Below, one piece after another: positions 21,141 through 61,835 of a stretch of DNA of 64,000 bases (positions within the stretch are counted from its first letter, which is position 1; each line of letters starts with the position of its first letter). The stretch is from the NCBI GenBank assembly GCA_963969395.1, contig OZ017796.1, positions 16,866,501 through 16,930,500 of the forward strand. Reading direction: 5' to 3'. The stretch comes from Pseudoscleropodium purum. Lineage: Eukaryota; Streptophyta; Bryopsida; Hypnales; Brachytheciaceae. A program made the translations under genes and the position numbers. The notes below the pieces were generated by a model, which was not told the DNA's origin, did not search any database, and worked only from the letters and a program-made list of their open reading frames with translations.

Positions 21141-21395
21141 TATTGAGATTACAAAGTTATGTTTTGAGAGAAAGGCTTCACTTAGATGGTAGAATGATAC
21201 AAAGCCACATAAGTGGGCTCAACTTAAGCTAGAAGCCTTTCCTAGTTATCCACAAACCATGTGGGATAACTAACTACATTGGGCTGCCTTTGACTACGAG
21301 CAATACCCATGGACTCTAACACTAACTAAGTGTCTAAAGCTACTCCTAAGGCTAACTGTACATGGTCAACACTAGTATGTACATAATCTCTAACA
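21141..21395 (-). repeat. Copia 3' LTR
   Basis: On the coding strand it starts TGTTAGAGATTATG and ends CTCAATA. It matches the 5' LTR except at four positions. The element ends TG...TA rather than TG...CA if the 5-bp duplication is taken at face value. Confidence 0.92.
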
Positions 21396-21405
21396 CTCCC
21401 ACTTT
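21396..21405 (-). other. Polypurine tract of the copia element
   Basis: The coding strand reads AAAGTGGGAG directly before the 3' LTR. This is the expected position and composition of the plus-strand primer. Confidence 0.7.
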
Positions 21406-22512: not shown

Positions 22513-24603
22513 TCAGCACTTGATGATGGCCTTGGTCTCCACATTCATCAGCCTATAAGCCTTGGTTCCCTCACAATAACCAAGGAAAAGGCACTTGATG
22601 CCCTTGGGATCCAATTTCGTCCTCTTGGCACTTGAGACCAATGCATAGGCAATGCACCCAAAGGTGCGCATGTGAGACATGTGGGGCCTTGTCCCACTCC
22701 AAGCTTCTTGCGGTGTCTTGCTTGTCAACGCGTGGGTGGGGCACCGGTTCCTCGTGTAAACCGCAGTGGACACCGCCTCCCCCCAAAGCTCAAGCTTCAA
22801 ACCTTGGCCATAAATCATGGCCCTTGCCATCTCCATAATGGTACGATTCGCACGCTCCGCTACGCCGTTTTGTTGAGGGGTGTAGGGTGCAGAAGTGTGG
22901 TGCTCAATGCCATGGGCCTTCAAGTACGCCTCAAAGGCCTTGGACACATATTCCCCTCTATTATCCGACCGCAGCACCTTCACCTTGCAATCCGATTGAG
23001 CCTCCACGAGGGCCTTCCAAGTCTCAAAACGCCCAAACACCTCACTCTTGCACTTCAACATATACACCCAAATCTTGTGAGAGAAATCATCAATGAAGGT
23101 CACAAAATACCTTGCTCCTCCTATGGACGTGGTCTTCATCGGCCCGCACACATCCGAATGCACAAGCTGCAATGGCTTGGTGGCGCGCATTGCCCCATCC
23201 TTGGGGAAGGGTTGCCTCGCATGTTTGCCCTCAATGCACCCCTTGCACACCATAGAACTCCAATCATGCGTGCAAGAAGAGAGGTTCAGACCCTTCACCA
23301 TGTGTTGGAGGCTCTTCATGCTCTTCACATTCAAGTGCCCAAGCCTCCTATGCCAAAGCTCCACAAGGTCTTCATGGGCTGATCCTTGGGCAACACACGC
23401 CAAGGAAGTGCCATTCACCTTGGTGAAATGGAGGTGGTACAAGTTGCCCTCACGAGGGACTGATGCAATCAAAACGTCACTTGGTGAACGCACCACACAC
23501 CTCACCATGTTGAAATGCACTTTCAAACCTCCCAAAGACAATTTGCTCACCGAAAGCAAGTTGGCATGCAACTTGGGGACATGGAGCACCTCTTGGATTT
23601 GGATCCTCCTGGTCTTCCCCTTCACTTGTACCTCCACAAGGATCTCCCCCATACCAAGGGCCTCCACCATGCCATTGTCTCCCAAATAAATCTTCTTCCC
23701 CGAAATGGGCTGATACGTATGGAAGGCATCTCGATGGCTGGTCATATGTTGCATGGCCCCCGAGTCTACAATCCAAGTGAACATATTGGCCTTCTCCCCT
23801 CCTCCATTGGCTGCAAAGGCGAAACCCTCTTCTTCCTCCTCTTTGGAAGTTGGGTGTGCACTCTCCTTGTCCTTGCCTTGGTTGATCTTGCAATGCCTAG
23901 TAACGTGGCCCGGTTTGCCACACTTGAAGCACGTCCTTGTCTCCTTGAACGCCTTGGTGTTGCCACCTTTTCCATGTCTTGAGACAAGCGCTGATCCCTC
24001 CCCTTGGGCCTCATTCTCCTTGCGCTTGGTCACTTCATGCATCAAGCATGCGGTCACAAACTCCATGGTCAGCTCCTTAGTGGGCCTCGTCTCCAATGCG
24101 GTGATGAGGAACTCATAAGACGATGGCAAGCTTGCCAACAAGGTCATCACCACATCTCCCTCGGTCATGGGCGCCTCCAAACAAGCCAACTCATCCGCAA
24201 GAGCCTTGACCTTGTTGACGTGATCCAACAAATCATCCTCTTCTTGCATCTTGCTAGTGAAGAACTTGCGGCGAAGAAATAGGAGGTTGGAGAGGCTCTT
24301 GGTCTCATGGATGTTGCAAAGGGTGGTCCACGCTTGGGCTGGTCCCTTGCAATGGCGAATGTGTGCAATTTGGCGATCCACAAGGTTGATGGCAATGAGC
24401 GCAAAGGCCTTCTTCTCCTTCCTCTCCCATGCCTTCTTGATCTTTGGATCCGCATCTTCACTTGGAGGCTCCTCACTCCCATCCACCACGTCCCACAAGT
24501 CCTTCTCCGCAAGGATCATCTCCATCTTGAACTTCCACATGCCAAAGTTCTCTCCATCAAACTTGTCGATGATGCGCACGCCCTCTCCTCCACTGGATGC
24601 CAT
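22513..24603 (-). pseudogene. Copia Gag - protease - integrase
   Basis: Reading from the ATG at 24601-24603 (MASSGGEGVRIIDKFDGENF) gives about 696 codons. An upstream in-frame ATG at 24685-24687 exists, but the internal one fits the usual Gag start. In order: a Gag capsid-like domain; a CCHC knuckle (CFKCGKPGHVTRHC); aspartic protease (WIVDSGA); the GAG-pre-integrase zinc motif (LWHRRLGHLN...C..C); and the integrase core with D (VHSDVCGP), D (RSDNRGEY) and E (NGVAERANR). The frame closes at a TGA (22513-22515) just before VTFWED, most simply a CGA-to-TGA change. It is listed as a pseudogene because the polyprotein is cut off from RT. Confidence 0.92.
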
Positions 24604-24688
24604 GGTGACGCAGCTCCCACTGTGTTGGATTTCACTGGAAGGGTCTTCTTCTGCTGGTGTCGGCTGGCAGCCGATACAAGTGGTCACA

Positions 24689-24717
24689 GAAAAAAAAAAA
24701 AAAAAAAAATTTTTTTA
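24689..24717. repeat. Poly(A)/poly(T) tract upstream of copia gag
   Basis: A run of about 22 A followed by 7 T on the plus strand lies in the copia leader just before gag. It is probably slippage-prone and its length may be uncertain. Confidence 0.8.
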
Positions 24718-25697
24718 AAGTCGGCGCTGAATGCAGCGTTCAAATGAGTGAAAACAATTCCGATTATTTACACTTGCACTTCTGTGCACAATACAAAACT
24801 ACATGGCCTTAAGTACCAAAAAGTCCGCTATAGTAAGAGGTACTTCGTCCGAGCAGCCCAAGCGTTCTACATTCATGTTAGCTGCCCGCACAGGCATACA
24901 AATCCAATCGCAGTCCACAGGCATGGCTCATCACCTGGACTTGACCGTCATCCTCTACCATACCTTGGTCCTGTAATCAATAAACCATTCTCTACCTTCT
25001 TGAAACCAAGCCATGGCCAACTCACCCGTCCGAAAACAGTAAACCCGGCTGAGGCCTCCCAAACATCTTCTCCACCTCCAATTCAGACCCTAATGAAGCT
25101 CCAAACTTCCAATCAGCCCTAAATGGAGGCTACTACTCACAATCAGCACCTCAAGGGCATTAATGGCCTCCAACACCCCTAGTTGGATCACCCAAACTCC
25201 AAAGTAGCCTACTTGCCTCTCAATGGCTCCACAAGGCTCACAAGGACACAACTCAGCCCTCAATGGATGGCAAATTCCACTCCTTTGCCTCACTCACTCA
25301 CAAGGGCACAAATCAGCCCTCAATGGATTAGCAAATACCTCAAGCAACCCAAAGGTGCTTCCAAGCCTCACAAAAGACTCTCACTAGATTGCAATTGCCA
25401 TAATCACAATCAACAATGCACCCAAATGCATAATCAGCCCTCAATGGGCTCTCAATGTACTCTTCTAAACACAAACTCAAACTAGGAGCATGCAACCAGC
25501 CCTCACAAGGTGTGATTACTACCATAAGCAATCTCTCACCCAAAATGCACTCAAAACCTCACAAACCAAAAAGCCCCAAATAACTCACACCATATGGTTT
25601 GTAGGTGAATAAGACACAAAACACTGATTGCTCCTCTAAGCTCCAAGATCGTCTCCAAATGATATGAAATTCTCCCTCAAGCGCAACTCCAAGTGCG
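24718..25697 (-). other. Copia 5' untranslated leader with a repeated motif
   Basis: About 1 kb separates the primer-binding site from gag. On the coding strand the motif CCATTGAGGGCTGATT or close variants occurs about five times (near 25115, 25255, 25315, 25435 and 25495), spaced unevenly. No long minus-strand ORF is present. The leader of LTR elements usually holds packaging and dimerisation signals; that role for this repeat is inference. Confidence 0.6.
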
Positions 25698-25710
25698 TGG
25701 GCCCATAACC
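25698..25710 (-). other. Copia primer-binding site matching the anticodon arm of initiator tRNA-Met
   Basis: The plus strand reads TGGGCCCATAACC directly inside the 5' LTR. This is identical to the anticodon-stem and loop sequence of eukaryotic initiator tRNA-Met (anticodon CAT). The usual plant primer-binding site pairs with the tRNA 3' end instead. Priming by a 5' half of initiator tRNA, cut in the anticodon loop, is known for Drosophila copia. The match is exact over 13 bases; its use here is inferred. Confidence 0.75.
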
Positions 25711-25965
25711 TATTGAAATTACAAAGTTATGTTTTGAGAGAAAGGCTTCACTTAGATGGTAGAACGATACAAAGCCACATAAGTGGGCTCAACTTAAGCT
25801 AGAAGCCTTTCCTAGTTATCCACAAACCATGTGGGATAACTAACTACATTGGGCTGCCTTTGACTACGAGCAATACCCATGGACTCTAACACTAACTAAG
25901 TGTCTAAAGCTACTCCTAAGGCTAACTGTACATGGTCAACGCTAGTATGTACAGAATCTCTAACA
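25711..25965 (-). repeat. Copia 5' LTR
   Basis: 255 bp, same length as the 3' LTR, with four substitutions between them. It is followed on the plus strand by the target duplication AGGTA (25966-25970). Confidence 0.92.
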
Positions 25966-27483: not shown

Positions 27484-29001
27484 TGAATTCAGAAAAACTT
27501 TGGAAGAAAAACAGTTCTCTTTTCCCTGCAAAGCTTTCCATTTGTCAAAAGGACATTTTTGGTCATTTTTGGTCCTCATTTTTGTCCTTGTCGGCGATAT
27601 AGGCTCATGGAAATTCTGGAATCTGATAGCACCTATTCCTCTTCATCCAGTCATTCTGAAATCTGAGTATGTGGCTGACTATGTTGGGGACTCAAAACCA
27701 TGGTGCCAAACTCCAGTGTCGTGGCACAGTCACAGTGGTTTAAATTTGTTAAATTTGGAGGGACCATCCTCCATTTCCTGCATGGTGTATTGCTACAGTG
27801 CAAAAAAAACTGTTGGGGAGAGGCCCGCATTCTTCCAGGTTCACGGACAACTCGTGGAAATGTGGAAATGTGGAATGGCACGTCTAATCTTCCAGCATAA
27901 TGTTTGGTGTCATTAAGATGTCCCATGGCTGAACCTCACCGGAATCACCTGACTGCATACAATTTGCTCGTCTTCTCAAGAAATGGTGCCCAACCGCCTC
28001 AAAACGACGGCAAACGCCAAGTAATTCAAGCACCCTAACATTCATACAACTTATCGGTAGTGATCAACTGTATCCATACCCTCAATAATGCAAAATCCAG
28101 AACATAGCATCAACCTTCCAAGTCTGCACATGTAACTGAAACCGCAGGGTGCACGCCGTGAAAATGAAGGACAAGCCTGGCCGGATTCAAAATTGCTTAG
28201 CATCCTACACTTGGCTCCAAAAATTTCATGTAAGCTGGAGTATGTATGAATGCATAAACACGCAGCTGTCACTCAGAGCTGTACTATACAGAGGACTAAC
28301 ATGCGCACAGACTGACAGAGCCTAATAACCCAACCTCATGCACAATGCCAGTTACCAAATAAGTGTGCAATTACTGCTTACTTGCCACAGAGCTCGTTTA
28401 CCAGCGGCCGGATACCGTCAAAATGAAATGAACATACACAGAAGCCTCACAATTCCACAACTTTTTTGGCCATAACTTATCCTTGCTCAGACCTGAAAAA
28501 CACCAGTGTGCAACCAATAACGCAGGGCCGCAAAATGAGTTATTCTATACAAGTATCAAACCACAATTGAGCAAAAATCATAATGCAAAATTCAAAACTT
28601 TTGAGGGACCCGACAGAGTGGATGAAAACCAACCCAAAAAGTCCATATACCGTCTACACCAACATCAACGTATTACAATGAATCTCTTTATATAAAATGC
28701 GGATATCCTAATGACATCCAAACAATTCCTCGATGAGATCTCCCAACCTCCGGTAACCTTTCCGGTGAGGTTGCATTGCAACAGGGTTCATTCAAATGTG
28801 AAATGTACATGAATCGCCAACAACTAGAGTCGGCAATTCTGAATCTGCCAAAAGCCTACTCATTAAAAAGGTAAGAAGCGTGGAGACCAATGAACCCACA
28901 ATCTCACTTCCGCGTCTGCTCAACAATCGCTCAACCACAATTTGCGTCACCTCCACCTGAAGTGCCTGCTGTCCACCTTAAAAACATCCACCGAACCTCC
29001 T
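27484..29001. other. Downstream flank of BiP copy 2
   Basis: Composition becomes less AT-rich toward the gene. A 171-codon plus-strand ORF at 27401-27916 overlaps the miniature element and has no recognisable domain. About 28808-28870 is homologous to the downstream flank of BiP copy 1 (about 968-1030), which shows that the two loci share an old common origin beyond the identical arm. Confidence 0.45.
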
Positions 29002-29858
29002 TCCGGATCCAAGGGATGCAATCAATCCAAGAGCAATTGCCTAACTAATCCAAATGCCCAGGAACACCACCTGCCTTCAGTCCTCCCACAGCCTTCCACC
29101 AACAGGTCCAATTCCCTCGAAAACAAGGTGGGCGACTCGACCTAAAAAGAATCCTCACACTCCGAAGCGCCTACAGCTCCTCGTGGCCCTCGTCGTCACT
29201 GTCGACGTCCTCACCTGCGGCACCACCGGCTCCTCCCGCGGCCTGGTACAACTTCGTCACGATCGGGTTACAGATACCCTCCACCTCCTTCAACTTCTCC
29301 ACGAAGTCGTCCTTCTCCGCGCTCTGGTTGTCGTCCAGCCACTCCAAAGCCTCCTTCATCGCCGTCTCGATGGTCTCCTTGTCCTCCGCCTCGATCTTCT
29401 CGCCCAGCTTGTCCGCCAGCTGGTTCTTCATGTTGTACACGTACGTCTCCAAGCTGTTCCGCGCGTCGATCCTCTCCTTCACCTTCTTGTCCTCCTCCGC
29501 GAACTCCTCCGCCTCCTGCACCATACGGTCGATGTCTTCCTGGCTCAGACGACCCTTGTCGTTCGTGATCACGATCTTCTCCGACTTGCCCGTACCCTTG
29601 TCCTCCGCCTTCACGTTCAAAATGCCGTTCGCGTCGATCTCGAACGTCACCTCGATCTGAGGCACGCCGCGAGGCGCCGCAGGGATGCCCGTCAGGTCGA
29701 ACTTGCCCAGCTCGTGGCAGTCCTTCGTCAAACTGCGCTCGCCCTCGAACACCTGAATCGAAACCGTCGTCTGCTGGTCCTGGTACGTCGTGAACACCTG
29801 AGACTTCTTCGTCGGAATCACGGTGTTCCGGGGGATCAGCTTCGTCATCACGCCGCCC
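29002..29858 (-). repeat. Identical inverted-repeat arm (right), paired with 1-857
   Basis: This covers the 3' third of BiP copy 2 and the first ~169 bases past its stop codon. It is base-identical to the left arm wherever compared. Beyond 29002 the flank aligns only in patches. Identity may continue past 29858 into the part of copy 1 outside the window. Confidence 0.85.
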
Positions 29859-31198
29859 ACGGTCTCGATGCCCAGCGTCAGAGGCGCCACGTCCAACAAC
29901 AGAATGTCCTTCGTCTCCTCGCCGCCCTCGCCGCTCAAAATACCGCCCTGCACAGCCGCCCCGTAAGCCACCGCCTCGTCCGGATTCACGCCCTTGTTCG
30001 GCTCCTTCCCGTCGAAGTAGTCGCGCAAAAGCTGCTGCACCTTCGGAATGCGGGTGCTCCCCCCCACCAGCACGATCTCGTGGATCTCGCTCTTCTGCAG
30101 ACCCGCGTCGTCCATCGCCTTCTTCACCGGACCCATCGTCTTCCGGAACAGGTCGTTGTTCAGCTCCTCGAAACGGGCGCGCGTCAGCGGCTCGGAGAAG
30201 TCCACGCCGTCGAACAGAGACTCGATCTCCACACGGATCTGGTGCTGGTTGCTCAGAGCGCGCTTCGCCCTCTCCGCCTCGCGCCTCAGCTTCTGGATCG
30301 CCTTCTTGTCCTTCCCGATGTCGCGGTTGTACTTCTTCTTGATCAGCTTGATGAAGTACTCCATGATGCGCTGGTCGAAGTCCTCGCCGCCCAGATGCGT
30401 GTCGCCGTTCGTCGACAAAACCTCGAACACGCCATTGTCGATCGTCAGCACGCTCACGTCGAACGTGCCACCGCCCAAGTCGAACACCAAGATGTTCTTC
30501 TCGCCGCCCTTCTTGTCCAAACCGTACGCGATCGCGGCCGCCGTCGGCTCGTTGATGATGCGGGCCACGTTCAGACCCGCGATCACGCCCGCGTCCTTCG
30601 TCGCCTGCCGCTGCGCGTCGTTGAAGTACGCAGGCACCGTCACCACGGCGTCCTTGATCTTCTTCCCCAAATACGCCTCCGCGGTCTCCTTCATCTTCAG
30701 CAGCACCATCGCGCTGATCTCCTCGGGAGTGAACACCTTCACCTCGCCATCCTTCACCTTCACCTGGATGTTCGGCTTGCCGTCCTTGTTCACGATCTTG
30801 AACGGGAAAAGCTTCAGGTCCTTCTGGACCTCCTTGTCCTCGAACTTGCGACCGATCAGACGCTTCACGTCGAACACCGTGCGCTCCGGGTTCACGGCGG
30901 CCTGATTCTTCGCCGCCTCACCAATCAGCCTCTCGTTGTCCGTGAACGCCACCCACGACGGCGTGATGCGGTTGCCCTGGTCGTTGGCGATGATCTCCAC
31001 ATGCCCGTTCTTGTACACGCCCACGCACGAGTACGTGGTGCCGAGGTCGATTCCGATCACCGTGCCCAGCTTCGCCGCCTCCTCCGCAGCGCCGTAGCAT
31101 CCCGACACTCCGACCGCGAACAGCACGCCCAGCACCAATAACACCTGCGTGTGGCGCCCCATGCTGGCTGCCCACTCCGCTGCCAATCCCGCACTCAA
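29171..31198 (-). CDS. BiP: BiP (ER-lumenal Hsp70 chaperone), complete, intronless
   Basis: A 675-codon uninterrupted frame encodes an ER Hsp70. It shows a hydrophobic signal peptide ([13 protein letters not shown]), the three Hsp70 signatures (GIDLGTTYS near residue 49, [28 protein letters not shown]), the substrate-binding domain with [19 protein letters not shown], an EEVD-less acidic tail and a C-terminal HEEL retrieval signal. BiP folds secretory proteins, gates the translocon and controls unfolded-protein sensors in the ER lumen. The Met at codon 13 (31160-31162, MGRHTQ) puts the signal peptide right at the N-terminus and gives 663 aa, the family's usual size, so it may be the true start. 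Absence of introns differs from seed-plant BiP genes as I know them; it could be lineage-typical or reflect retroposition. The promoter region carries CCAAT boxes and a UPR-like element. Confidence 0.96.
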
Positions 31199-31501
31199 AC
31201 CCTAACCTCAAACAGACCTCCGGAGGACGAATCAAAACAACCCAACACTCTAACCGCCGCAGCAGTAATGACAAACTCAGAAAATCTTCAACGAAAGAAT
31301 TGTGACTGCCTAAAACAAAGCACTAAAGAAGTTGGAGTGAGCCGGCTATGGAGTTCCAGCCGCGCACAGAATGCAAGAGGACACGGATTTCCAAGGGAGC
31401 CGGTTGAAGAATGGTGTTGAAGACGCTGCTTGTGCATATTTCTGGTGTCAGCTGGCGAAGTCAGTTGGTATCGCCTGTTACTGCCTGTGTGAACCCCCTC
31501 A

Positions 31502-31749: not shown

Positions 31750-33254
31750 GTTACTGCAAGTCTGGTGGTCCCAGAATTTTTGAAGTTGTTTAGCACATCG
31801 AATAAGTTATAGTACATCAAAATGGTTATTTAGTTAGGTCCATTTTACAAGCACATATTATTAACCATCAGTATCCAAAATTTTGGACATTCCAATTATT
31901 CATCAAGTTTAATTGGCATTAATGCTAATTTTTGTAGGGAATATTATTTGACATTTTGATAATTAGATTTATCCACTTCGTTTAAAAATGACATCACTGG
32001 AAAATTGAATCCCACCCTATCAAGAAGCCTCTTTCCTTTCTTCTTTCAAATTGAATCATACCCTATCAAGAAGCCTCTTTTGATCCACTAACTTGAAACC
32101 TCTTCACAACAATGAAGAAGTTGTACACACTTCAAGGTACAATTCTTTGCAATAAATAGCAAATGCTAAATGCTATTAAATATCCCTTAATTATCTACTA
32201 TGTGAATTTTAATGTGGACCATACTAATTTATTGGATAACCAATTTTTCACACATACTAAATGACTATTTCAATACATAATATTAGATTTGCTATTTAGA
32301 TTGTTTCTTTTTTGTTTTTTCCTAATAGCAACTTCAGTTTGATCTTTACAACCTTGAGCCTATGGGATCATAATTAGTATTGTTGAAGAGCACTTGGCAA
32401 GGTGTGTGTAGGGTGCAAGATTTGCGATATTTAGACTAGTGAAGAAGAAGAATTCTCACCCAAACAAGTCAAATTTAATTGGAATTTAGAATTTTAAAAT
32501 ATAAATGATTTTTAAAAAGGATGTTTTTCTTAAAAACTTCATAGAGGAGGGACTTGGAGCAACTACAAGATATACTTTCTCGACATCCTTGAGGTACTTT
32601 ATCGCCCATGTGGGAAGCAACACAACTAGCTTGCATGTACCTACAGTACTCGTTTTCACAACTACATCAACTTCAATCTAACTTCTTGGCTACGTAAATC
32701 GTTTGTTGGCACTGACCACAAATTTTTCATTCATAGACATATGTTGTAGCTTCAATTGGGAGTGCTTATATCATAGTGAGCTTCAAAATATGCATCTATC
32801 TTGATTATATGAATTTCCAATCTAATTGTTTATGAAGTCTTTTGAAGAAGTTTACCGATTGTTTTTTGTCTAAGTGTGCAAATTTGTAGCATTGTACACA
32901 ATTGCATTGAATTGCCTACAAGCCTAAATCTTCCCTTTTCATATATTAACTAGTCATTAGTATCCTCAAAGGAAAGAATCCACATTAGAAAGTCAATGGA
33001 AGAAAGGAAAGTGAAGACGATGAATATGAACTAAGTTGGATATTGAAGCAACAACATCAAGTACAATTTTGCATGAAATTTTTGGCCAAGTGTGGTTACC
33101 ACATCAAAAATTGTGATGTCACAAATTTGCAATGTACTCAAAAAGTGTGATCCAAAAACAACAACTTCCATCTAAGTCCACACAAAAAAATGCTCACCTT
33201 CCAAGAATAAACCTCATGAAATTTTTTTCTTGCAAGCCCATTACTATCAAATAA
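31750..33254. other. AT-rich intergenic DNA
   Basis: No gene seen. A short direct repeat, ACCCTATCAAGAAGCCTCTT, occurs twice at about 32013 and 32060 with related flanking bases. Nothing else stands out. Confidence 0.45.
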
Positions 33255-34219
33255 TTAACCCCTCATTGCCGCAGTGGACCAAAAGTATCCTCACACAGTT
33301 TTCAAAGTTCTATAACTTTTGCATTCAATGTCCGAATTCAATAAAACTTGTTGGAAAATTTGCACTCTCTTCTAGTTTGTATGGTAGAATTTACAAATCA
33401 ATTCAAGATGTACACAGAAATTGGAAGCCAATCAAAGTTCAAAGGTTCAATTTGAGTCCACCAAACTACATTTGATGGTTGCAACTTAGGGGGATTGTAT
33501 CTCCTTCATCCAATGTTTGTTTTCAATAAAAAATTTGTTGTGATATATTTCCCTTTCAGTCTAGTTATTGTGGTAAGATTTTCATGTCAATCCAAAGTTT
33601 CTTTGAATGTTTGGGAGCAATTCGAAGTTCAAAATCCCAACATTTTTGGATTACAGTGAACCTTGGTGACTTATTTCTTCTCCATACAAAGTTTGTTTCC
33701 AATAAATTTTTTTGAAAAAGATGTGCATATTAGTCAAGTTTATGTGGCTAAATTTCATATCAATGCAAGTTATGAGTGACTAAGAAGCATTTTACTAGAA
33801 GGAGGTTCAGCCTCATGCGTGTTTTCTGCAACTTTTCTGACCTATTTTTTGACATTTGCAAGCCATTTGCAAACACATTGAGTCAATTTATTGATATTTT
33901 TTTTCAAGAATGTGTTTATATATCAGTTTTGAATAAATTTCTAGTTTTAAATTTTTTCATTTAAGTAAGCTTAGAAATCGAATTTCACCTCCAAGTGTGT
34001 TGCTAGGAGAATTTTAGCATCTTTTTTCAGCACTAAAACATTATAATCTTTCAATCTATATGGTCAAATGACTCCAAATTTGTACCACATCATCTACAAC
34101 ATGTTCACTACAATATTGTACGGTTAAGATCTTTATAACTTAGTGAAATTTACATCTATTTCAATTCAAAAGCAATGATGTTTTTGAACCCAAGTGAGAC
34201 TTTGGCAATGAGGGGTTAA
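33255..34219. mobile_element. 965-bp TTAA-type non-autonomous DNA transposon, copy A
   Basis: TTAA (33255-33258) is followed by CCCCTCATTGCC. At the right end GGCAATGAGGGG precedes TTAA (34216-34219), giving perfect 12-bp terminal inverted repeats. Internal ORFs are short (81 and 62 codons) and show no transposase. A second copy of exactly the same length lies at 61836-62800 and aligns along its whole length with scattered substitutions. TTAA duplication with C-rich ends is the hallmark of the piggyBac superfamily; assignment without a transposase is inference. Confidence 0.8.
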
Positions 34220-37096: not shown

Positions 37097-37239
37097 ATCC
37101 CTTTACTTGCCCCCTTTGTCGATGTTGAAGCCTCATTCACACTAGCAAATTCAATGATCTTTTCCAAAGAATCAACAAATGTCCAATAGAAAACCCTACA
37201 AAGATGAAGATGTGTGTCTATGTCTCGATACACTTTTAG

Positions 37240-37372
37240 GATTAACCCACCAGTTCACCGGAATTTCTTATAACAATAGACTCAAACAATTTGTGTGCCA
37301 CCCTATGGAAGAAATATTGCACAACATCATAGTAGCAATGCGCTTGGCACTTCCACATAATACACATTTCAG
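37240..37372 (-). pseudogene. PHD-finger-like module after the gypsy integrase (degraded)
   Basis: The minus strand reads CVLCGSAKRIATMMLC, then GWHTNCLSLLL, an in-frame stop, and EIPVNWWVNP. This matches the PHD spacing C-x2-C ... C-x2-[C] ... G-W-H-x2-C-L ... IP-x-x-W. The fourth Cys is Ser and the last Cys pair is not visible. It is in the same frame as the upstream integrase tail (37732-37460), joined through one stop where the surrounding pattern suggests Trp. PHD fingers read histone H3 tails. In gypsy chromoviruses a chromodomain sits at this position. Confidence 0.65.
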
Positions 37373-37908
37373 TTCAGCAGAAATCTGAGAATTGCTTGTA
37401 TCAATCCTTCCATCAATGTGAGGCAAATGACATGGTACACAATTGTGGGTGTGATCTTTCTAGAGTTTGCCATCACGACCTTTCAAGAGCAATACGCTTG
37501 ACTTGAGAACTGCATGCACTCGTAGAATAATACGCCATGTAGTCTTATTGAGTATAGTTGGCGTTGTTTGTTGCAAATAAATATAGTCTCCAGATAGAAA
37601 ACATTGGACTTGAGGTCGATAACCTCCTCCTCGTATCGAGGCATAATACAAAGTGTCTCTATGCTGCGCAATAGAAAGGTTCTCCAAAGCATGGGCATTA
37701 CCCTCTTGTATAGTTTCGCACGTTGCTTGCATATTCTTACCTATGTGTCCGGATCATCTATGTTATCCAATATTTTGTTTGCATCTTGTTTGATTGCCAT
37801 TAGTAATATTGGATGACACCCAAACAATAAATAATAAGGTGAAAAAAAAGCCAGAGACGTTTGCTTACTAAATCAATAGCCCATTGCTATTCATGGAAGC
37901 TGCAAGTT
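37373..37908 (-). pseudogene. Gypsy integrase C-terminal region
   Basis: This links the integrase core to the PHD module. The frame at 37732-37460 contains YRPQVQCFLSGDYIYLQQT and IILRVHAVL, like the GPY/F-type C-terminal domain of gypsy integrases, then KDHTHNCVPCHLP. A frameshift separates it from the core. Confidence 0.6.
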
Positions 37909-38565
37909 TCAATCTCCATATTGCCCCTTCTTCAAACTATATTTCCAAAGCGCCCTCTTGATGGTTTGTATCATATGCTCTGCCAATCCATCTACTTCGG
38001 GATGATCCGGACAAGTAGTGTAGTGATCAATCATCGCTTGTACACACAAGGCTTGAAACTCTCTAAGAAACTCATGTCCTTGATCGGTCAACACCTCTGT
38101 TGGAACTTCAAAGCATCTCAACATATGGTTTAAAAAGGAATAAGCTGCCCCTTTGTTGAACTTGTTAGGCAATGCCACCAACTCAATCCATTTAGAAAAA
38201 TGCTCAATCATCACCAACACGTACTTATTGTGTCGTTGTGTCACTAGCAATGACCTTGTAAAGTCCAAACTCCATCTATAACCCAATCTCATGATTGGCA
38301 ACAATTGTAATTGAAGTATTTGAGCATTAAAAGATGCCCACACTCTATTATACACCGTGTATTTGGCTACCAATTGTTGGACTTGCATTTGCGTACCCCA
38401 CCACCAATAGTGAATTTGTAGCAAACTATGAGTCCTTTGCACTCCAAAGTGTTCTAAGTCCTCATGCGCATGCATAATTAATTTCACTCTCTCTCTCGGC
38501 TCTAGTACCACCTTTTTTTTATTGCCATTTGGCCAAACTTGAAGCAAATGAACCCCCTTCCACAT
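37909..38565 (-). pseudogene. Gypsy integrase, zinc-binding and catalytic core
   Basis: 218 open codons. The N-terminal HHCC domain keeps its His pair (HEDLEHFGVQRTH), but both Cys positions are Tyr (KYTVYNRV). The DDE core is visible: D in SLDFTRS, D in VLTDQGHEF and E in DGLAEHMIQT. Loss of the zinc Cys pair makes this copy non-functional although the frame is open. Confidence 0.85.
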
Positions 38566-38844
38566 GAATCGCTTGGCTTGCTATAGAATCCGATCTCTCT
38601 CCGTAACTGACATTGTCGTCACCAATTCGCCATACTTCATAACCTCCACATCCTCAAAAATATCCTTGGTGCCCCAAGACTCTTCACCTCCATCCCCATC
38701 CATCGTGGGCACGATGGCTTCTTTTGTAGTGTCTCTAGTCATCGCCATAATACTCAAATAAGTGGTAGAATGCCACCCTGGTAACGAATCTTTTCCCTCT
38801 TTTACGTGCCATCGAGCCCTTGTAGAGTCCACTTGGTTAAGACT

Positions 38845-39227
38845 TCAATTGCAGCTTAAGCCATCATCATTAATATTCACCAAACTGGCACGGTGTACAA
38901 CTTTAAAGTCATATTCCATTAGCATTAGGCCCATCGTGCAAGCTTCCATGTAAGCTTGTCGGACTCCATTAGCCATTTCAATGGTTGATGGTTTGTTACC
39001 AATAGAAATTAATTGCCATATAAATAGCAATGAAAATGAGCAATAGTCCAGATTGTTGCTAAGCACTCTCCCTTGTATGAGCTATATTGTGCCTTCGCAT
39101 TGTTATTGGAACGACTGGCATAGGCTACTACAATTTCTTTGCCATCATCATCTATTTGAGTCAACACTGCGCCAATCCCTAGTGAGCTCCAATGTATTTG
39201 TAATTGATATGATCTACCAAAAATCAA
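38845..39227 (-). pseudogene. Gypsy RNase H
   Basis: The translation includes LGIGAVLTQIDDDGKEIVVA, YASRSN and YKGECLATIW, which are typical gypsy RNase H segments. It continues in another frame with YDFKVVHRASLVNINDDGLS. The first catalytic Asp is replaced (IHWSS where DWS is expected). One frameshift lies near 39060. Confidence 0.8.
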
Positions 39228-39302
39228 CCTTCATAATATTAGTGCCGATACTTAACGTTCCTTCAATTGTTTAAAAGTTGCCTCTTATTCATCTCCCGAC
39301 AT

Positions 39303-40300
39303 TCAAGGTTGATCATTCCTTGTCAACATAGTCAATGGCTTTGCAATAGCACTAAACATCTTCACAAATTTTCTATAGTAATTACAAAATCTCCAAATTG
39401 CTCGTAAATAGCTCACATCTTTTAGCCTTGGAATAGAAAGTATCACCTCCACTTTGCTAGCCACCACTCCCAATTCACCAGGATATATCATGTGGCCTAA
39501 GTATTGTACACGGTCATAATAAAACTTACATTTATTTGGATGTAATTTTAACCCCTGAAGCTTCAATCTAGCAAACACCTCCATTAGATGAGCTTTATGT
39601 TGTTTTTGGTTAACACTATAGACAATAACATCATCTATATAGCATTTAACAAACTCCAAACCGGAGAATATGCGATCCATCACTCATTGGAACTCTAGTG
39701 GTGCATTCTTCAACCCAAATGGAAGGAACAACCATTGATATAATTGGTCCTTCCTATCTTCATCAATTCCCTAGAATGTTGTTTTTTCCTTGTCTCTTTC
39801 TAGAAATACCGAGGTGGTGATAATCCAATTGAAAATTTAAGGTACTAAATACCTTGGCATGGTCAATGGCATCAAAATTCTCTTCCGGTGTTGGCATAGC
39901 ATAGTGGTCGAACTTCGCAAACTTATTAATTCTCTGATAATCCCCACACATCCTTTTCTCATTCCAATTACTATAAATGTCTCTCTTGGATGGCATGACC
40001 GTTGCCAATACATATTCACAATCTAGTGAAGTTAACTCCACCAATCCCACCTCCAATAACTTCTTGGTCCAAGCTTGGATCATCTTGTATTTTACTTTGC
40101 TATATTTGTACAGCTTGTGATAAATTGACGCAACATTTTGTCAAATTAATTCGTACCTCTTGCCCTTCTAATACCCCCAAATCCTTGAGACTAAAGGCAA
40201 AACAATCCATGTACTTTTTGAAAAACTCTTCTCTCTCCTTCATCTTTGCTTCATCTTCTAAGCCTATTAACAGTTGCCAAGTTTTCTTAGTCATTGCCTC
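39303..40300 (-). pseudogene. Gypsy reverse transcriptase
   Basis: The pre-RT segment (EEFFKKYMDCFAFSLKDLG) is followed, after a frameshift near 40090, by the RT fingers (RMCGDYQRINKF, YAMPTPEENFDAI, KVFSTLN). After another frameshift come LPFGLKNAPLEFQ, a stop, and the palm with YIDD at 39630-39641. The connection region follows (LHPNKCKF, YLGHMI). At least two frameshifts and one stop are visible. Confidence 0.88.
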
Positions 40301-40695
40301 CTTCCTTTCTTCTTTTGAAGCAGGTTTTTCAACTTTTAGTTGCTATTGCACTCCATCTGAAGTAGAGTCCTCTTGCTCTACCCCAACCATACCATATTGT
40401 TCTTCAACTTGGATCAAGTGTCATAGTTCTTCAATTTGGCCCTCTATATACTCTTCAAAAAATAACTTCTCCATGTGCTCCTCCAATTCAATTTTATATT
40501 TAGCCAATTGATCCCAACTAGGCCAACTCATTCGTGGAGTCGAGAAAAATGAGTATCCTTCCATAAGTCCCATGGGTGAGTTGTGAAGGCTTCTTCGCCC
40601 CAAACCACCAAATCTAAGCTACCAGAACTTGATGGTTTCATAGCCACTTGTAGCTCGTAAAAATCCAAGTGGCCCATGAGTGTTGAAGCTATGCA
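40301..40695 (-). pseudogene. Gypsy pol spacer between methyltransferase and RT
   Basis: The frame of the methyltransferase continues to a stop at 40528. From about 40560 the coding signal moves to another frame (acidic, KIELEEHMEKLFFEEYIEG) with further stops. No domain recognised. Confidence 0.5.
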
Positions 40696-41655
40696 CTTTT
40701 GTTTAGCTACAATAAGTGAAAACACCGAAGAAAGACAATTTAAATCCATGGCTTGGCCAATGAGATATCGCTTTAGAAACTCTGTGATGTTGGGAACATT
40801 GGTAACTCCAGTTTGAAATTCTATAGTGCGTTCCTACTCATTAGCATTGGGCTCAACCATCTCTTCAATGCGAGAATCCCACACTAAACCCGGTCTGTTG
40901 TCTTTAAAGGCATAAGACCGTGAGAAACTCACAAAAATTGGCAAATCCCTTCATGGTTCACCCTTGTGATTGCCAATTGCCAATGGTTCTTGATTGTTGT
41001 GATAAACTTGCCTTGAAGAATGGTGAGGATCCAAAATATCCTTCACATAAATGTCAAATCGTTGAATATGTTTAATTGTTGCATTTAATAACTTTGGTGG
41101 TGCCATATTTGTCCACCAAAGCCTTGGTCTATGAGCTCGTGATCCCACTACAGCAACATCTAATAATATTGGAATTCCAAGAATCCCATGGATGTAGTGT
41201 ATACTTTCAAGTGTGCATGTACGTGAAGTACTTACCACGGGCATGTTTTCAATATTGTACTTCGGTGGACGTCATTGAGATGTTTGAATAGACTGTATCA
41301 CCCGCACCATGTCATAAAACCGTGAAAAACAATGGTCCTTCAAGCCATTTTGCTCACTTGCCATAGACATACCTTGACATGGCCACCCTATAATTACCAA
41401 AATCATAGTTCCCATTCGTACAATGTCATCATGTGAAATCAAAGAAATGTCACTCAATAGTGCAGAAAATGTAGTCTTGATAGCATTGGTGCTCAATAAT
41501 AATAAAAAAGAAGTTTGGTGCAACCGTCGAGCATGACGCTTAGCTACTTGCCATGCCATGTCGTCATTGTCCACATAAATATAACGTTTCACCTTCATAT
41601 CTGCTTGCAACACAGTAGCCAATCCAATGCCAATACCATCAAACAACTCCTTAAG
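40696..41655 (-). pseudogene. Cytosine-C5 DNA methyltransferase domain (DNMT3-like) inside the gypsy pol
   Basis: About 320 codons in one frame, interrupted by three in-frame stops (TGA 41272-41274, TGA 40951-40953, TAG 40834-40836). Motif I LFDGIGIG (41623-41646, SAM binding), motif II-like YVDND (41563-41577), motif IV GWPCQGMS with the catalytic Cys (41365-41388), motif VI IENM (41242-41253) and motif VIII SRAHRPRLWW (41113-41142). A C-terminal end like the DNMT3 terminus follows (ERTIEFQTGVTNV..., then FLKRYLIGQ...FSLI). The order is canonical, so it is not a rearranged DRM enzyme. Motif VIII and the C-terminus look DNMT3-like, while PCQG in motif IV is more DNMT1/bacterial-like than the PCN of DNMT3. 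The enzyme transfers a methyl group from SAM to cytosine C5 in DNA. Frame continuity with the upstream protease argues that it belonged to the polyprotein. Confidence 0.85.
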
Positions 41656-42400
41656 TGTAATACCTTCGTTTGGCAACTTCCAATGGATTGTGGAAGTACC
41701 TAGAGATGGGCCGGCATACTCCTCACCTCCATCTTCATCTTGTGGCAACAAAGATTGTTGCCACGCCTCTCAAATTATAGTCTCTGCAGCATGTTGTAGC
41801 ATGGTGGTATTCTCCTATACTGATTCCACCCCTAGTTGATATAATATTTTGCCCCCAACTTCCAAAACATTGATATATTCTTCTTCCTTGACGTTGGCAA
41901 CTGCGGAAATAATAGAAAGATTTTCAAAATCCTCTTCAAACCAAAGTTGACCTTCTGCTACAAGTCCAAAGAAGCAATAGAAATGGGCCAAATTATTGAT
42001 AAGAACTTGAATGAAATAAGTTGGCAACTGAGCCTTTCGCCCATCACCTGCTTGTCATCCTGGTTTATATGATGTTGTCTCCTTCCAAAAATCTAAGGTG
42101 AAACCCATGGGATATAATACCATAGTCCTTACCAATACGTCATACAATTTGGCTTTTGTGATGATGGCTTTCACCTTTATGAAACTAGCATCTTCAACAT
42201 CATTATAATGGGATCGTAGTGTCAACTTGCTCCTTGTGATGCCATTTATTTGCTTTGTCCCTCCCATAGAAATATTAATTGTCCACAGACATGTTTCCAA
42301 CATATCTTTGGTCAAACCCAAGCCTTCAATTGTTGATTCACCTAGCATCAAGGATTGTGCACCAGAGTCCAATAGTACCGGTTGAGGCACAAAAACTCTT
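41656..42400 (-). pseudogene. Gypsy aspartic protease and linker to the methyltransferase
   Basis: VPQPVLLDSGAQSLMLGE contains the retropepsin DSGA motif (42358-42369). The same frame continues through several stops (42052 region, about 41812, 41770) into the methyltransferase. The linker has no recognised domain. Confidence 0.75.
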
Positions 42401-43420
42401 CATTTGGGCCCAACTAGTTGAAAAATGCCCTGAGAGTTGTTAAGAATCACTACTCCTAGAGTGATGGATAACCGCTCTATTGCCGGATATGTTGGCATGG
42501 TCTTCAACTAAGCGGCTATTCATAAAAGGCCCTCCAACTGAGTCCAATCCCTACTAGTCACCATATTCGATTCAAGCACAATTTCCATGGAGCCAATCGA
42601 TGTTGAGGTGCCACTTTCACACATGGTGGCCGCCAATTGGAACATTGTAGCTGCACTAAATTGCGAGTGCGAAATCATGAATGCAAAAAATAATGGAGCT
42701 TCACAAATTACAGTGGCTACATCAAATAGTGTACCTGTACCTTGGCCACCCACATTGTTAACCGGAGTAGCACGACAACTACTAGAGTTTTGAACTGGTA
42801 AAACCATAGATGAAGTAGACACCACATCTGCTAATATAAATGATTCTGGCAACCGTGCTTGATGGTTGGTCTCTCCTTGTTGTAGATCCTATCCCAAACT
42901 CACCCCTTGTGGTGCATCATGCACCATGGTCTTACTCCATGTTAGTGCATAAGCATCCATTGGTGTTCCATGGGGTTTCGCCATGCCGCACAACATGTGG
43001 TCACCTTCTTCAGCATAAAAAAACATCATAGTCTTTTGTGAAGAGGACCTCTTTGCCTTAGTGGTGGCACTCATTGCCGCCATTTTGGCTTCTAACTCCT
43101 TGAATTGTGCCTTCCATGATATCTTCTCTCCTCCCGTAGGTTTGGCTTCCCTTGATTTATTTTCCTTGGTATTTTTGGTCCTCTTGGGCTTAAATTTTGG
43201 ATGTATTTTCCAGCAACTAGCCTCTCCATGACCTTTGATGCCACAACCAAAGCAGAACCCACCAACCTTAGCCGGTTCTTTCTTGACTGTCTTCTTACAA
43301 TCTTGGTAATGATGACTAACACCTCTACAATTAAAACATGTAATATCTACATCTCTCGTATTAGTTGGAATGCTAGCCTTAGCGGCTTTGGTCTTCTCCA
43401 ACGGTTTTTCTTTTTTTGCA
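42401..43420 (-). pseudogene. Gypsy Gag C-terminus with two zinc knuckles
   Basis: Two CCHC knuckles (C-x2-C-x4-H-x4-C) lie in about 43216-43338: CFNCRGVSHHYQDC and CFGCGIKGHGEASC. They are followed by basic and then low-complexity sequence leading to the protease. Zinc knuckles bind the element's RNA in the particle. Confidence 0.8.
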
Positions 43421-45117
43421 AGAACCTCATGGCGACCTTTTGCTCCAAGAGATTGATCTCAATTCTCTTGGAGGTCTCAAAAACATACCTTAAGGTTGGA
43501 GGTACACCTAACCTTAATGCTTCACTACAGACAAAAGTTTTCAATTCTTTGTCCAAAATATTATACTAGAGTTAAATAGCTTGTTGCTCAATCACTCCAT
43601 GCGTAGCAGAAATTAACCGCCTTAGTCTCAAATGTGCCTCTCGCAATGACTCTTCACTTCCACGTGCAAACACACAAAGTGACTTCATTTTGTCCGCCCA
43701 TTAGTCATGATAGTCTCATTGCAACTGCATGAAAAATCATATAGTAGGGTTGAAAGGTGGTAGTTTTGCCACTTGTATAGTGGTCATGGTCACTATGGCC
43801 TCAAAGCCTTCCGTGCTTGCGCCCCCTTCTTCTTTCTTCCCCTTGCTAGCTAGTACCACAACGCTAGGCCCCCCTCCCTATACATTGGCATAGTTTGGAG
43901 TATAATAATTCCACCATGCTTGAATCTTCGTAGAATAAGCAAGCTCAAATTCCCCATAATTTGAAAGTGGTGCCCTTTCAAGGCATCCAAATAATGCCTT
44001 CCATACTATGTATGGATTAAAACTCGTATTGTATGATTTCTAGAGTTCACACCACATGGTGAATTCTCTCTGAAAATCATCAAACTCCATGGTTCCAGTG
44101 GCACCAAAAAATCGTCGTATCCCATGATTTGCACCTCCATAAGGTAAAGCCATCTCGTTCCAAGTGAAAATTGATTCAAAGTAAGGAAGCCTTACCTCGT
44201 GGTTTACCGCATTGACATGAAAATCTTCATTGTCGTCACTTGCGGTCTCTTCTACCCAATCTGCTTGCTCTTCACTTGATTTCGATATTAATTCACTAGA
44301 GTTTCGTGTGCCAATGAAAGGCCACTGGCTCCAAGGTCGAATTGGCACAATCTTGCCAATCTCCACTAGTTGTGGAATAGTATCACTTGCAAACGGTAGA
44401 CCACTCCTAGTATGCCCTGTTTGTCGAGGTGAATCTAGATTTGGATTTATGAATAATATTGCCACGCCTCATGCTTATCCGTAATGGCATTAGAGTAAAT
44501 GGTGCGTGGTACTTTGTAATCAATGAAGGCAAGAGTTAATGCATCCCAAATACTAGATACCCTCTCCAACCATCAACCTTGTTCTCACTGCCAAGTAGTA
44601 TGAAATAAATACCCTTGGGCTTGAAACTCTGTAAAGATCAATGAAAAGGTTGGTAGGTCAACGTGCCTAAAGAAGATGTGCTTAACGACCCCTCGTTCCT
44701 CAATATCACGGTGACACAAAAAATGACCAAGTCAATTGCCTCCACTCTCTTTTTAGCTCGGCACAATGGAGCCTCAATCATAGGTCTCTAAAGACGTTGC
44801 TCATGAATAATGTGAACACCGCTTTATTGAGTCCAAAACTTCACAACTTTGGCACTTAATATCTTTGTACCTAGAGCTCTTTGTGGTTGAACTCCAATGC
44901 GGTCTCAAGCCAAAGGTGATAATAGAAAAGGTGTAAGAAGCTCTTGGACTTAGTCTTGTCTTGGTGGTCTATTAGGTGATCCCACCTTCAAGCTTTGAAA
45001 AGAATGAAAAACACGTTGTAGGTCCTCCCTATTCACATTGGTTTGAATGCTTTCGCCTTCCATTTCATCAAGTGGTAATAGTGTAAAGGGCTTAGCTACG
45101 CCCTTGCCTTTGTCCAT
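43421..45117 (-). pseudogene. Gypsy Gag N-terminal and capsid region
   Basis: The probable start is the ATG at 45115-45117 (MDKGKGVAKPFTLLPLDEME). The frame breaks several times; coding signal resumes at 44465-44040 (141 codons with an acidic segment and FDDFQREFTMWCEL) and at 43556-43430 (DKELKTFVCSEALRLGVPPT). Capsid homology is recognisable only by position and composition. Confidence 0.6.
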
Positions 45118-57687: not shown

Positions 57688-60600
57688 ATGTCGTCGACAT
57701 GGACATGGATTCTTGTGACACTCATCTTTCAATGCCTCTTCAACACACGAGGAGCTTTGGCTACCTACGTATGCGGCAAAGGGATCACGACGAAGATCTA
57801 CACTGAGTGCAAGCTCCTGCCGGTTTTGGATGCCTCTCTCGCTTGGACTCTCGACCCGTCTACGAACTCCATCGACTTTGCGTTCACAGGTACTGTTTTC
57901 AGATCCCTGCTTCTAAGTCAATATTGCGATCTACAGAGTCTCGATGACGTTTTTGTAATGTTAGAACAGTGGTGACCTTACCCTAGATCTGCGTGCATCT
58001 CTTCTTCTCCATTGCATCATGTATATTGCATAAAAACGGCATTTTACCCTCTGAGACGTCGTACTAGATTTTCTTTTTGATATTTTCGAGGAATCGCATC
58101 ACAATGACGCAGAATTTCCAGGAATATCAGAATCGTTCCCTTGATTTATGGAAGTTCTCCCTATGGTTACCCTTATCACGGAGCCCTTTCCATGATACGT
58201 AGGGAAGCCACCAGACAGATAGTGTAACTTCAGAGTAATCACAGGAAGATCCTTCATCTAGCTAGCTGATGTTGTTCCTGAAAGTCTAATTTCACCGAAA
58301 ACCCTGTTTGTATCACATCCCAGAAAATACTAGCAAACGGTCTCTTTCAACCATTTTAAAGACCTGCTTTTTAGTAGTCTGCGGTTACCATGTGATGTAT
58401 TCTTACCAGAGAGATGGTAAATCGATCCACACGGTGCCGTCACGATGCAAGCTGCTTGAGAACTCATAGATTTTTGTATCCCTTGATCCCAAGCAGAGGA
58501 TTTGTCAAGTTCTGTACGAATAGTGTTAGCTCGTGAATCACAGAGAGACTCTCTATCTAGATGATGCTGTTCCTGAAAGTCAAATTTTACTGAAACCCCT
58601 GTTTGCGTCACACCCTACATTAACACAATGTTACCAGACGATCTCTTCCAACTGCTTGAGAAATGCATTGTCGGGATAGAAAGTCGTTGAAAATTCATTG
58701 TTGGCATTCAAGCTGCTCGAAAATTCATTGTAGGCATTCAAACTCCTAGAAAATTCATTGCTGGCAGTCAAACTGCTTGAAAACTCATTGCTGGCAATCA
58801 ATCTGCTTGAAACGTAACTGTTTTTTGTTTCCCCTGAGCCCAACCAAGCAGAGGACTTGCCCAGCTCGACCGGGTGGGTAGCCTGGGGCATCAACCCCTC
58901 TGGTCCTCAAATGGTGGGCACCCAAGCGCTGGGCGCCTTTCGGAACAGCACAGGCGTGACAGTGCGAACTTACGACGTGACTGCGGCGGTGAAGAACTCT
59001 GGACGGAGCCTGGTGCCGGGTTCCGTGACGGTCGCCTTCTCCAACTACTCCGCCAGCGTGACGGCCGCGGGCACCGTCACGATCTCGGGCACGGTGATGT
59101 TGCAGCCCGGGCAGTCGACGGCGCTGAATTTAGTGTGGAACCGAGGCCCCGCCGTGGTGGCCATGACGGCGGCACTCAGCAGCCACCTGTTAGTGAATGA
59201 CAACCTCGCCAGCACGGCCGTGGTGGACATGGCCTCGGGAGTGCAAACCGGGGGCGGACAAGTTCCCAACAAACGGCTGAAAGATGTGAGTCTTCCGGCG
59301 CCATGAATTCGGACATTCATTCATTTGCCCAAAGCTCTAAAAACTTGGATTGCTTTAGACTGACGTGATTCAAGTTGTGGAATACCGTTGGATTAACAAA
59401 ACCAACATCAATTGCTTCGAGTATTAGGAACATCAAGGAATTGCACCTGAAGTCGACCAAGTATTGAGCATTTGATCATGGTTGCTATAATCACTCTATC
59501 TAAGTTTTTTGTTGGGTCTTGTCTGGAGTCAAGGGGCTTTCAGATTCTCTTAGCATGCATTTTGTTGGACTATGTATGAGTCAAATGTGAGTTCTCAATG
59601 TGTTGGAAGTAGACCCTATGACCTCATGATTTGAGGTTGTCTATTTTAAACAAGACGCTCTATGGGTTGATTTTAGAAATGGGCCACAATTAGATGTTCT
59701 CTTAATTTCCTATCTAAGCAAAAATAGGAGTTCTTTGAAAATAAGTGCTTCCAAGATGAAATGGGAATTGTTGGAATGGGAGTTTTTTTCATTCATGAGC
59801 AGGTAGAATTAATATTTTTTGAGAGATTCAGCTGTATTTTTTGTGGTTGCATTGAGGTGTCTGGTGTGTACTATGAACTCAATGTGATGGAAGTACAGTC
59901 TCATTATGAGTGAGAGCTAAGACTTAAAGGCACAGGATTGGTTAATTATCAAGGTTAATTATCACATTACCAGACATAATTTCAATGGTTACATCTTGTT
60001 CAGGCCTGCGTAATCAAGAGTCTTAAATGGAGAGCAGTGTAATGCTATGGATGAACAAGTTTTGGGAGATATAATTGTATGATCATGATTGTTAAAATGA
60101 AAAACTTTCAAGATGTTTGCAGATTTAGATGCCTCAGATTACAGTGATTTGATTTCTTTGTCTCTCAGATTTTTGGGCCGGCTGTTAATACAGATTCACA
60201 TCAAGAGTCTTAAAGGGAGAGCAGTGTGACACCAAGGATGAACAAGTTTTGGGGGATACAAGTTAAGCGTACAATAAGTTACTGATTGTTAAAATGAAAG
60301 ACTTTCAAGATGTTTGCAGATTCATATGCCTTGATTACTTCATGATTTGATTTCTTTGTCTCTCAGATTTTTGGGCTGGCTGTTATTACAGATTCATGGG
60401 ATCATCAATGCTGTTTCGTGGGGAATTTTACTTCCAATTGGAGTAATGGCAGCTAGGTACTTGCGCCCCTTTGAGTTTGCTGATCCAGCTTGGTTTTACT
60501 TGCATGTGTTCTGCCAAATTACTGCGTATGCTGGGGGTACAGCAGGCTGGGTTTTAGGCTTGAAGCTCCAGCAAGTTGCGCATCCCATCAAGTACAAGCA

Positions 60601-61639: not shown

Positions 61640-61835
61640 TGCCAAAGCTAACCACAATAGGTGAGTGTATGAAACTGAAATGGGTGTGGGTGCAAAATTC
61701 GCTTTTATATTCAATAAAATATTCATTTTTGGAGAAAAAATTTCGTTTTCTTTTTTTTATTCTTCCACAACCTTATTTTTTGCACACATTGAATTCAAGC
61801 CCCATGACTTTTCCACATCATCCAGTCTGAAATGC
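61640..61835 (+). repeat. Direct repeat, copy 1, interrupted by the TTAA element at its right end
   Basis: This matches about 62890-63090 with substitutions: ATTCAATAAAATATTCATT near the middle, CACATTGAATTCAA, then TGAAATGC. In copy 1 the next bases are the TTAA and the transposon. In copy 2 the sequence continues TGAAATGTTTAAGTTATCC uninterrupted. Confidence 0.75.

Follow-up and report, generated by a model that had tools for sequence, protein, structure and literature searches.

Retrotransposons carrying a DNMT3-type cytosine methyltransferase (MT) are already known as a kind. The precedent is KnitGypsy-Dnmt3 of the charophyte alga Klebsormidium nitens. It is a long terminal repeat (LTR) Gypsy element whose pol contains an intronless DNMT3-type domain, reported to be under purifying selection with Ka/Ks <0.2 (PMC5890265, de Mendoza et al. 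2018). In dinoflagellates, the SymbioDIRS-Dnmt3 enzymes are reported to methylate CG de novo in yeast (PMC5890265). Here we analysed a 64,000-nucleotide stretch of the moss Pseudoscleropodium purum (contig OZ017796.1), called the window throughout. Judged from its sequence, the minus strand at 44243-37208 is the internal region of a dead, old Ty3/gypsy LTR retrotransposon. It presents gag, protease (PR), MT, reverse transcriptase (RT), RNase H, integrase and a decayed PHD finger, in this order. A stop codon in a leaky context closes its first open reading frame (ORF1) after the MT.

The window element resembles KnitGypsy-Dnmt3 in being a Gypsy polyprotein with a DNMT3-type domain. This comparison is by description; the KnitGypsy sequence is not among the rows of our three protein searches, and no row named Klebsormidium appears among the matches listed. 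SymbioDIRS-Dnmt3 and SymbioLINE-Dnmt likewise have a retrotransposon-borne cytosine methyltransferase. However, they are DIRS and LINE elements rather than Ty3/gypsy, with another domain order. Chromoviruses are Ty3/gypsy elements with a chromodomain at the C-terminus of the integrase (PMC3605345). The window lineage has the same type of chromatin-reading domain at this place, but it is a PHD finger in the chromodomain's stead, and the MT is added. Finally, murine leukaemia virus (MuLV), SIRE1 and Tca2 have an in-frame stop between reading frames, with programmed readthrough in MuLV reported at ~5% (PMC2194720). The window lineage shares the in-frame stop. Nevertheless, theirs lie between gag and pol or between pol and env, and that of the window lineage lies after PR-MT.

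The three protein searches were all aimed at the MT and gave 79, 67 and 59 rows, together at least 174 (P0001-P0174). The second and third scored ~7990 candidates each. Marchantia polymorpha, Calypogeia fissa, three Sphagnum species and Closterium are named as sources. Marchantia accounts for at least 21 of the 174 rows, some of them possibly one locus in two assemblies. Another relative, L008, was found by a GTDB genome scan. It is a 9285-base contig filed under a cyanobacterial metagenome-assembled genome (MAG), a label most likely due to faulty binning. A 127-base overlap of its ends closes it into a circle with ~2 kb of non-coding sequence, as an assembler would build from a multi-copy element with one LTR. 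P0092 is filed under a Candidatus Obscuribacterales MAG; both are probably eukaryotic elements binned with bacteria. L008 consists of one ORF with Gag-PR-MT and a second (ORF2) with RT-RNase H-integrase-PHD, and is collinear with the window along 44243-37208. The MT has an equivalent place in L008 and in the Marchantia, Calypogeia and Sphagnum proteins. An initial annotation of the window had proposed a Ty3/gypsy element with a DNMT3-like enzyme in its own polyprotein, and these collinear relatives bear it out. The PHD region and the land-plant relatives go beyond it. The parts of the element are the following.

43515-44243, minus strand: Gag capsid part, degenerate, with 7 in-frame stops (tblastn with L008 ORF1 and P0080)
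42889-43458, minus strand: Gag C-terminal part with two CCHC zinc knuckles (189-residue ORF, knuckles read by eye)
42055-42399, minus strand: aspartic protease, LLDSGAQSLML (ORF; Pfam Asp_protease_2 E 0.0035, under its cut-off)
40687-41691, minus strand: DNMT3-type cytosine-5 methyltransferase, 335 residues, 3 in-frame stops (PF00145, profile of relatives)
40346-40513, minus strand: ORF1 C-terminal tail ending in GVQ, in a frame different from the MT, with one decay stop (P0031 and P0067 alignments)
40337-40345, minus strand: ORF1 stop in the leaky context TAG CAA CTA, TAG at 40345-40343 (position from the P0031 C-terminus)
38928-40318, minus strand: RT and RNase H, spread over three frames (tblastn with L008 ORF2 residues 11-472, 33-61% identity)
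37690-38580, minus strand: integrase, H2C2 zinc finger and rve core (Pfam; tblastn reaching 37690)
37208-37390, minus strand: decayed PHD finger at the integrase C-terminus (alignment to L008 ORF2)

The assignment to Ty3/gypsy follows from the gag-PR-RT-RNase H-integrase order, the RVT_1 match, the RT-type RNase H and the rve core downstream of the RT. By tblastn, the Gag capsid part shows 23% identity to L008 ORF1 (1.7e-8) and 40% to Marchantia P0080 over 254 columns. The C-terminal part of Gag is collinear with the same two proteins, with a weak match to Pfam zf-CCHC_4 (E 0.17). The MT is flanked by a retropepsin and a YIDD-type RT, as first described: DSGAQ lies in the ORF 42399-42055, and the RT matches RVT_1 (2.1e-13) with YIDD present. 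Downstream, the RNase H matches RT_RNaseH_2 (1.1e-18), and the ORF 38580-37909 matches rve (7.3e-15) and Integrase_H2C2 (4.1e-8). The copy is dead because it has 34 in-frame decay stops and frame changes over the aligned segments, a count that leaves out the ORF1 stop and one further stop in the ORF1 tail. No LTR pair was found in the window, the copy being too decayed for this absence to show anything; the local score of the flanks was 30, against a mean of 31.5 and a maximum of 38 in 20 shuffles.

The catalytic motifs of the MT are preserved despite the in-frame stops. They lie in one minus-strand frame, as the initial annotation had stated, from 41646 down to 40738: LFDGIGIG (41646-41623), GWPCQGMS (41388-41365), IENM (41253-41242), motif VIII SRAHRPRLWW (41142-41113) and the C-terminal LIGQAMDLN (40791-40738). 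This frame (41769-40528) has in-frame stops with first bases at 41274, 40953 and 40836, and a terminating stop at 40530. The profile search suggested earlier gave a match above the cut-off: Pfam DNA_methylase PF00145 matches the stop-free piece 41769-41272 with E 1.2e-6 and 28.6 bits (cut-off 22). The following piece of the frame, 41271-40951, had no Pfam match. A profile of the relatives matches in one stretch, model positions 2-336 of 339, with 386 bits at 41691-40687. The identity with P0001 is 58%. A chance origin of the motifs is ruled out by the PF00145 match and the protein relatives.

We compared a profile of ten relatives with solved structures. DNMT3A was the highest among those compared (88.5 bits), followed by 4onj (51.3), DRM2 (39.8), DNMT2 (38.5) and HaeIII (37.2). 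The record of 4onj is named only 'DNA methyltransferase', and we take it to be DRM. No chain named DNMT1 was among the 57 chains listed at E <=10. Likewise, the predicted fold of the relative P0001, which is not the window copy, was nearest to DNMT3. Of the solved structures, DNMT3 therefore comes nearest to the MT, both in sequence and in the predicted fold of a relative. Motifs I, IV, VI, VIII and the C-terminus occur in linear order, unlike the rearranged order of DRM. The mixed DNMT1/DNMT3 origin suggested before finds no support, with DNMT3A favoured by the profile and the PCQ of motif IV present in bacterial enzymes too. The catalytic Cys is conserved in 88 of 91 aligned domains, the Glu of motif VI in 90, and each Arg of motif VIII in 88. 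Glu replaces the Pro before the catalytic Cys in 7 of the 91, for example in P0113, P0118, P0126 and P0152 (WECQ or PECQ).

A virus or phage source was rejected on the outcome of pattern and record searches. P0002 had no match in IMG/VR, and a 165-residue piece of the window had none in phage records. With alignment A2, the virus and phage search gave 8 pattern matches and no relatives. With alignment A3, it gave 65 pattern matches and seven loci (L001-L007). The GTDB scan with A2 gave 53 pattern matches and five loci, four from Streptomyces plus L008. By a loose pattern, the DNMT3-like motif VIII was absent in 11 of these 12 loci, all but L008.

A check of whether PR, MT and RT share one intact frame had been suggested. 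The first two have a common frame in the window, and a single ORF holds the PR motif and the MT in P0037, P0057, P0094 and P0131-P0144. The RT was not part of that open frame in this lineage: ORF1 is closed by a conserved stop past the MT, and the RT then continues in the same frame. In the window the RT-integrase portion is split among several frames. The stop divides Gag-PR-MT from RT-RNase H-integrase-PHD in the window and L008 alike. Its place in the window was obtained from P0031, whose residues 272-327, up to its C-terminus, match 40513-40346. Past the stop, the window frame stays open to 40142. In L008, the ORF1 stop is at 3489-3491 (TAG CAA TCA), and ORF2 continues in the same frame.

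Both copies with DNA, the window and L008, present the context UAG CARYYA. Among plant RNA viruses, tobamoviruses and others have this sequence as their type I readthrough motif (PMC5382211). L008 has one occurrence on the coding strand, at the ORF1 stop, and one on the opposite strand. The minus strand of the window (64 kb) has seven, one of them inside the aligned coding part of the element. None of the 34 decay stops has this context. Thirteen close relatives of the window terminate at the ORF1-stop site in GIQ or SIQ, and eleven rows of the L008 kind (L008 included) share a common end at their site. P0067 (source 'lgn') continues through the site, reading PSPGIQ-Y-QSK where the window has DGVQ-stop-QLK. 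The alignment over the stop is in one frame (124 columns, 53%). P0067 may be a mutated copy; all the same, its sequence fixes the frame. The leaky UAG of tobacco mosaic virus is decoded as Tyr by plant tRNAs. Since the conserved, leaky-context stop lies after the MT, production of the MT was probably on a par with that of Gag.

The PHD finger is best seen in L008, where PF00628 matches ORF2 residues 990-1034 (4.3e-10). Residues 869-1042 of this ORF align with the window at 37732-37208 with 45% identity (5.5e-42, tblastn). The C4HC3 zinc ligands are present in L008 and relatives. In the window, the ORF 37459-37268 had no Pfam match, and several ligands are lost by eye. Our custom PHD model was found in 17 MT-bearing rows. 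PF00628 matches all seven of these that were scanned, most of which also served as seeds of the model. By analogy with its family, we consider it somewhat probable that the finger reads histone.

To estimate constraint on the MT, pairs within a clade were scored at the columns conserved in other clades. The pairs were chosen by hand and share rows, so they are not independent. The conserved columns carry fewer differences in 14 of the 15 pairs from clades III, IV and V (ratio 0.08-0.41, p <0.05), the exception being P0080/P0144 (ratio 0.51, p 0.26). Because the differences avoid columns conserved elsewhere, the sequences indicate that the MT was kept functional in these three other clades. In the window's clade, three pairs had ratios of 0.54-0.63 (p 0.003-0.009). 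At the tips of this clade, the window copy (ratio 0.55, p 0.0015) and P0004 (0.56, p 0.02) also showed constraint.

The MT occupies two positions among the relatives. The architecture scan covered 177 sequences (174 P rows, two L008 ORFs and the window MT), with domains assigned by custom hidden Markov models and Pfam checks. RT-RNase H precede the MT in thirteen proteins, and seven more have the MT followed by integrase-PHD without the RT part. The MT precedes the RT in fifteen proteins; six of these are Marchantia or Sphagnum gene models and may have been joined by predicted introns. The MT tree comprised 65 of 91 rows, 26 close rows having been dropped by eye, and had no outgroup. Eighteen MT-before-integrase rows form one clade (SH-aLRT support 98), with P0160 outside; P0115 received its label from its position in a first tree, and P0117 by eye. 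A clade of 34 (98) holds both the window and the stop-type Gag-PR-MT rows. Nearest to the window are JGI proteins, followed by further rows and then by bryophytes. The MT-before-RT rows join the window's clade at 87 only. P0111, which falls outside the 34, likewise ends 94 residues past the MT, and its sisters P0116 and P0114 are longer. The RT tree, with 19 rows, separates the same two types at 100/99. It groups the window with Marchantia P0084 (98/95), then with L008 (100/98). MT and RT distances correlate (r 0.82, with 0 of 5000 permutations as high), although much of this is the split between the two types. Because the trees agree and the distances correlate, MT and RT have long travelled together. 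One move of the MT or two captures are both compatible with these trees, which have no outgroup.

Other arrangements were observed. P0146 and P0148 are ORF1-like proteins of 1734 and 1775 residues in which the MT begins at 1238 and 1280, a start ~240-380 residues beyond that of P0131-P0143. In the copia-type polyproteins P0172 and P0174, a diverged MT-like domain separates the Gag zinc knuckle from the Pol_BBD region. They gave protein-search matches of 8.7e-23 and 4.8e-17 and no PF00145 match at E <=0.01, and their motif VIII is altered.

With moderate confidence, we favour the reading that Gag-PR-MT was the main product and that the MT modified the complementary DNA (cDNA) of the element in or near the particle. 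ORF1, encoding Gag, protease and the DNMT3-type MT, would be closed by the leaky UAG CARYYA stop. The majority of ribosomes would terminate there and yield Gag-PR-MT. A minority would read through to Gag-PR-MT-RT-RNase H-integrase-PHD. Because most ribosomes would stop after the MT, the enzyme would be packed abundantly in the particle, beside the new cDNA. It would methylate this cDNA de novo, before or at integration, and the PHD finger of the integrase would read the histone H3 tail and direct the choice of target chromatin. The parts of this reading differ in strength. Readthrough of the stop in cells is highly likely and activity of the enzyme on DNA is likely, and the chances that cDNA was its main substrate are about even. 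We propose the widest form only tentatively: Ty3/gypsy elements that read chromatin would form an old lineage of streptophytes, extant in land plants, which would pack a DNMT3-type enzyme at Gag dosage through programmed UAG readthrough and methylate its cDNA in the particle, and its new copies would arrive bearing the host silencing mark.

Several observations weigh against this proposal. In nine metagenome-source proteins a single ORF spans MT and RT, so not every relative needs the enzyme at Gag dosage. The stop context was read from the DNA of just two copies. A common protein end is in itself weak evidence: P0003, P0005, P0007, P0040, P0053 and P0056 share an end 81 residues past the MT, where longer relatives have Gln next, and this common end looks like a decay stop. 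Twelve JGI copies of the window's clade, compared with their own consensus, showed no constraint (pooled ratio 0.91, p 0.44). Their substitutions are of the kinds made by C-to-T decay. We read this as an enzyme kept while the elements were active, in copies that would decay after insertion. At 0.46, the window element is no more depleted of CpG than a neighbouring copia element (0.38). Finally, KnitGypsy-Dnmt3 is the closest precedent to have been assayed; in yeast it produced no methylation, a result that its authors call inconclusive (PMC5890265).

The MT might instead have served self-restraint, silencing new copies and limiting copy number and host harm, or, with the PHD finger as guide, it might have acted on chromatin where the element lands, and not on cDNA. 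The same enzyme and PHD evidence applies here, and restraint is one suggestion made by the authors of the known cases (PMC5890265). However, the MT of the window lineage lies on the Gag-PR side of the stop. Presupposing readthrough, it would be mostly unfused to integrase-PHD. We consider this alternative possible, yet unlikely.

It is improbable that the domain is now a nucleic-acid chaperone or an RNA methylase kept for particle assembly, and not a DNA methylase. The replacement of Pro by Glu in seven domains and the altered motif VIII of the two copia-type proteins would suit such a role, and RNA methylation was raised for the LINE forms (PMC5890265). On the other hand, the near-complete conservation of the catalytic Cys, the motif VI Glu and the motif VIII Arg residues, together with a predicted fold nearest to DNMT3, points to a DNA methylase. 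We give an equally small chance to the conserved stop being an ordinary terminator, with ORF2 expressed via splicing, reinitiation or a subgenomic RNA. Some Marchantia and Sphagnum gene models (P0084, P0150 and P0107) do go from MT to RT and lack the greater part of the ORF1 tail, a pattern expected of a predicted intron. Nevertheless, both DNA copies have the type I leaky context, the frame directly after the stop is open and in phase in L008 and the window, and P0067 continues in frame. The nested insertion of a host DNMT gene or retrocopy into one decayed element, which the initial annotation had named as its refutation and which heavy decay leaves as a mere possibility, is refuted by L008 and the bryophyte proteins, collinear along the whole element with the MT between PR and RT too.

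According to a later paper, land plants lack such transposons (PMC6338049). For bryophytes this is contradicted by the Marchantia, Calypogeia and Sphagnum rows, as far as their sequences tell. The words PHD, readthrough, Marchantia and moss are absent from the main text of PMC5890265. In the literature searched, with most subscription journals outside it, we found no report of UAG CARYYA readthrough in a retrotransposon, and no land-plant, other algal or PHD case of an MT-bearing retrotransposon. Within this scope, the land-plant members, the leaky stop after the MT, the integrase PHD beside the MT, the two MT positions and the two copia-type proteins with a diverged MT are new. DNA methylation is a main plant route to silence such elements, and a methyltransferase long kept by an element is a paradox. 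The liverwort and moss relatives raise the possibility that these elements put marks on their own DNA. In Marchantia, which is grown in the laboratory, what the enzyme does can be tested directly, and one concrete prediction follows from the leaky stop, namely Gag-level amounts of the enzyme.

Elsewhere in the window, searches for tRNA and for Rfam families at gathering level gave no matches. The copia element at 21141-25965 is young, with 255-base direct repeats at both ends (98.4% identical) and two long minus-strand ORFs of 733 and 273 residues with gag, integrase and RVT_2. An intronless BiP-like HSP70 ORF of 676 residues, ending in HEEL, lies at 29171-31201, and its region has a partial inverted copy (28788-29858 versus 1-1044, 93.6%). 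Both this ORF and the DUF568 domain given below indicate that the host is a plant. A direct repeat of ~970 bases (33249-34219 and 61830-62800) is 88% identical. At 58818-59306 there is a DUF568 domain (PF04526, 3.3e-16), which is plant-specific.
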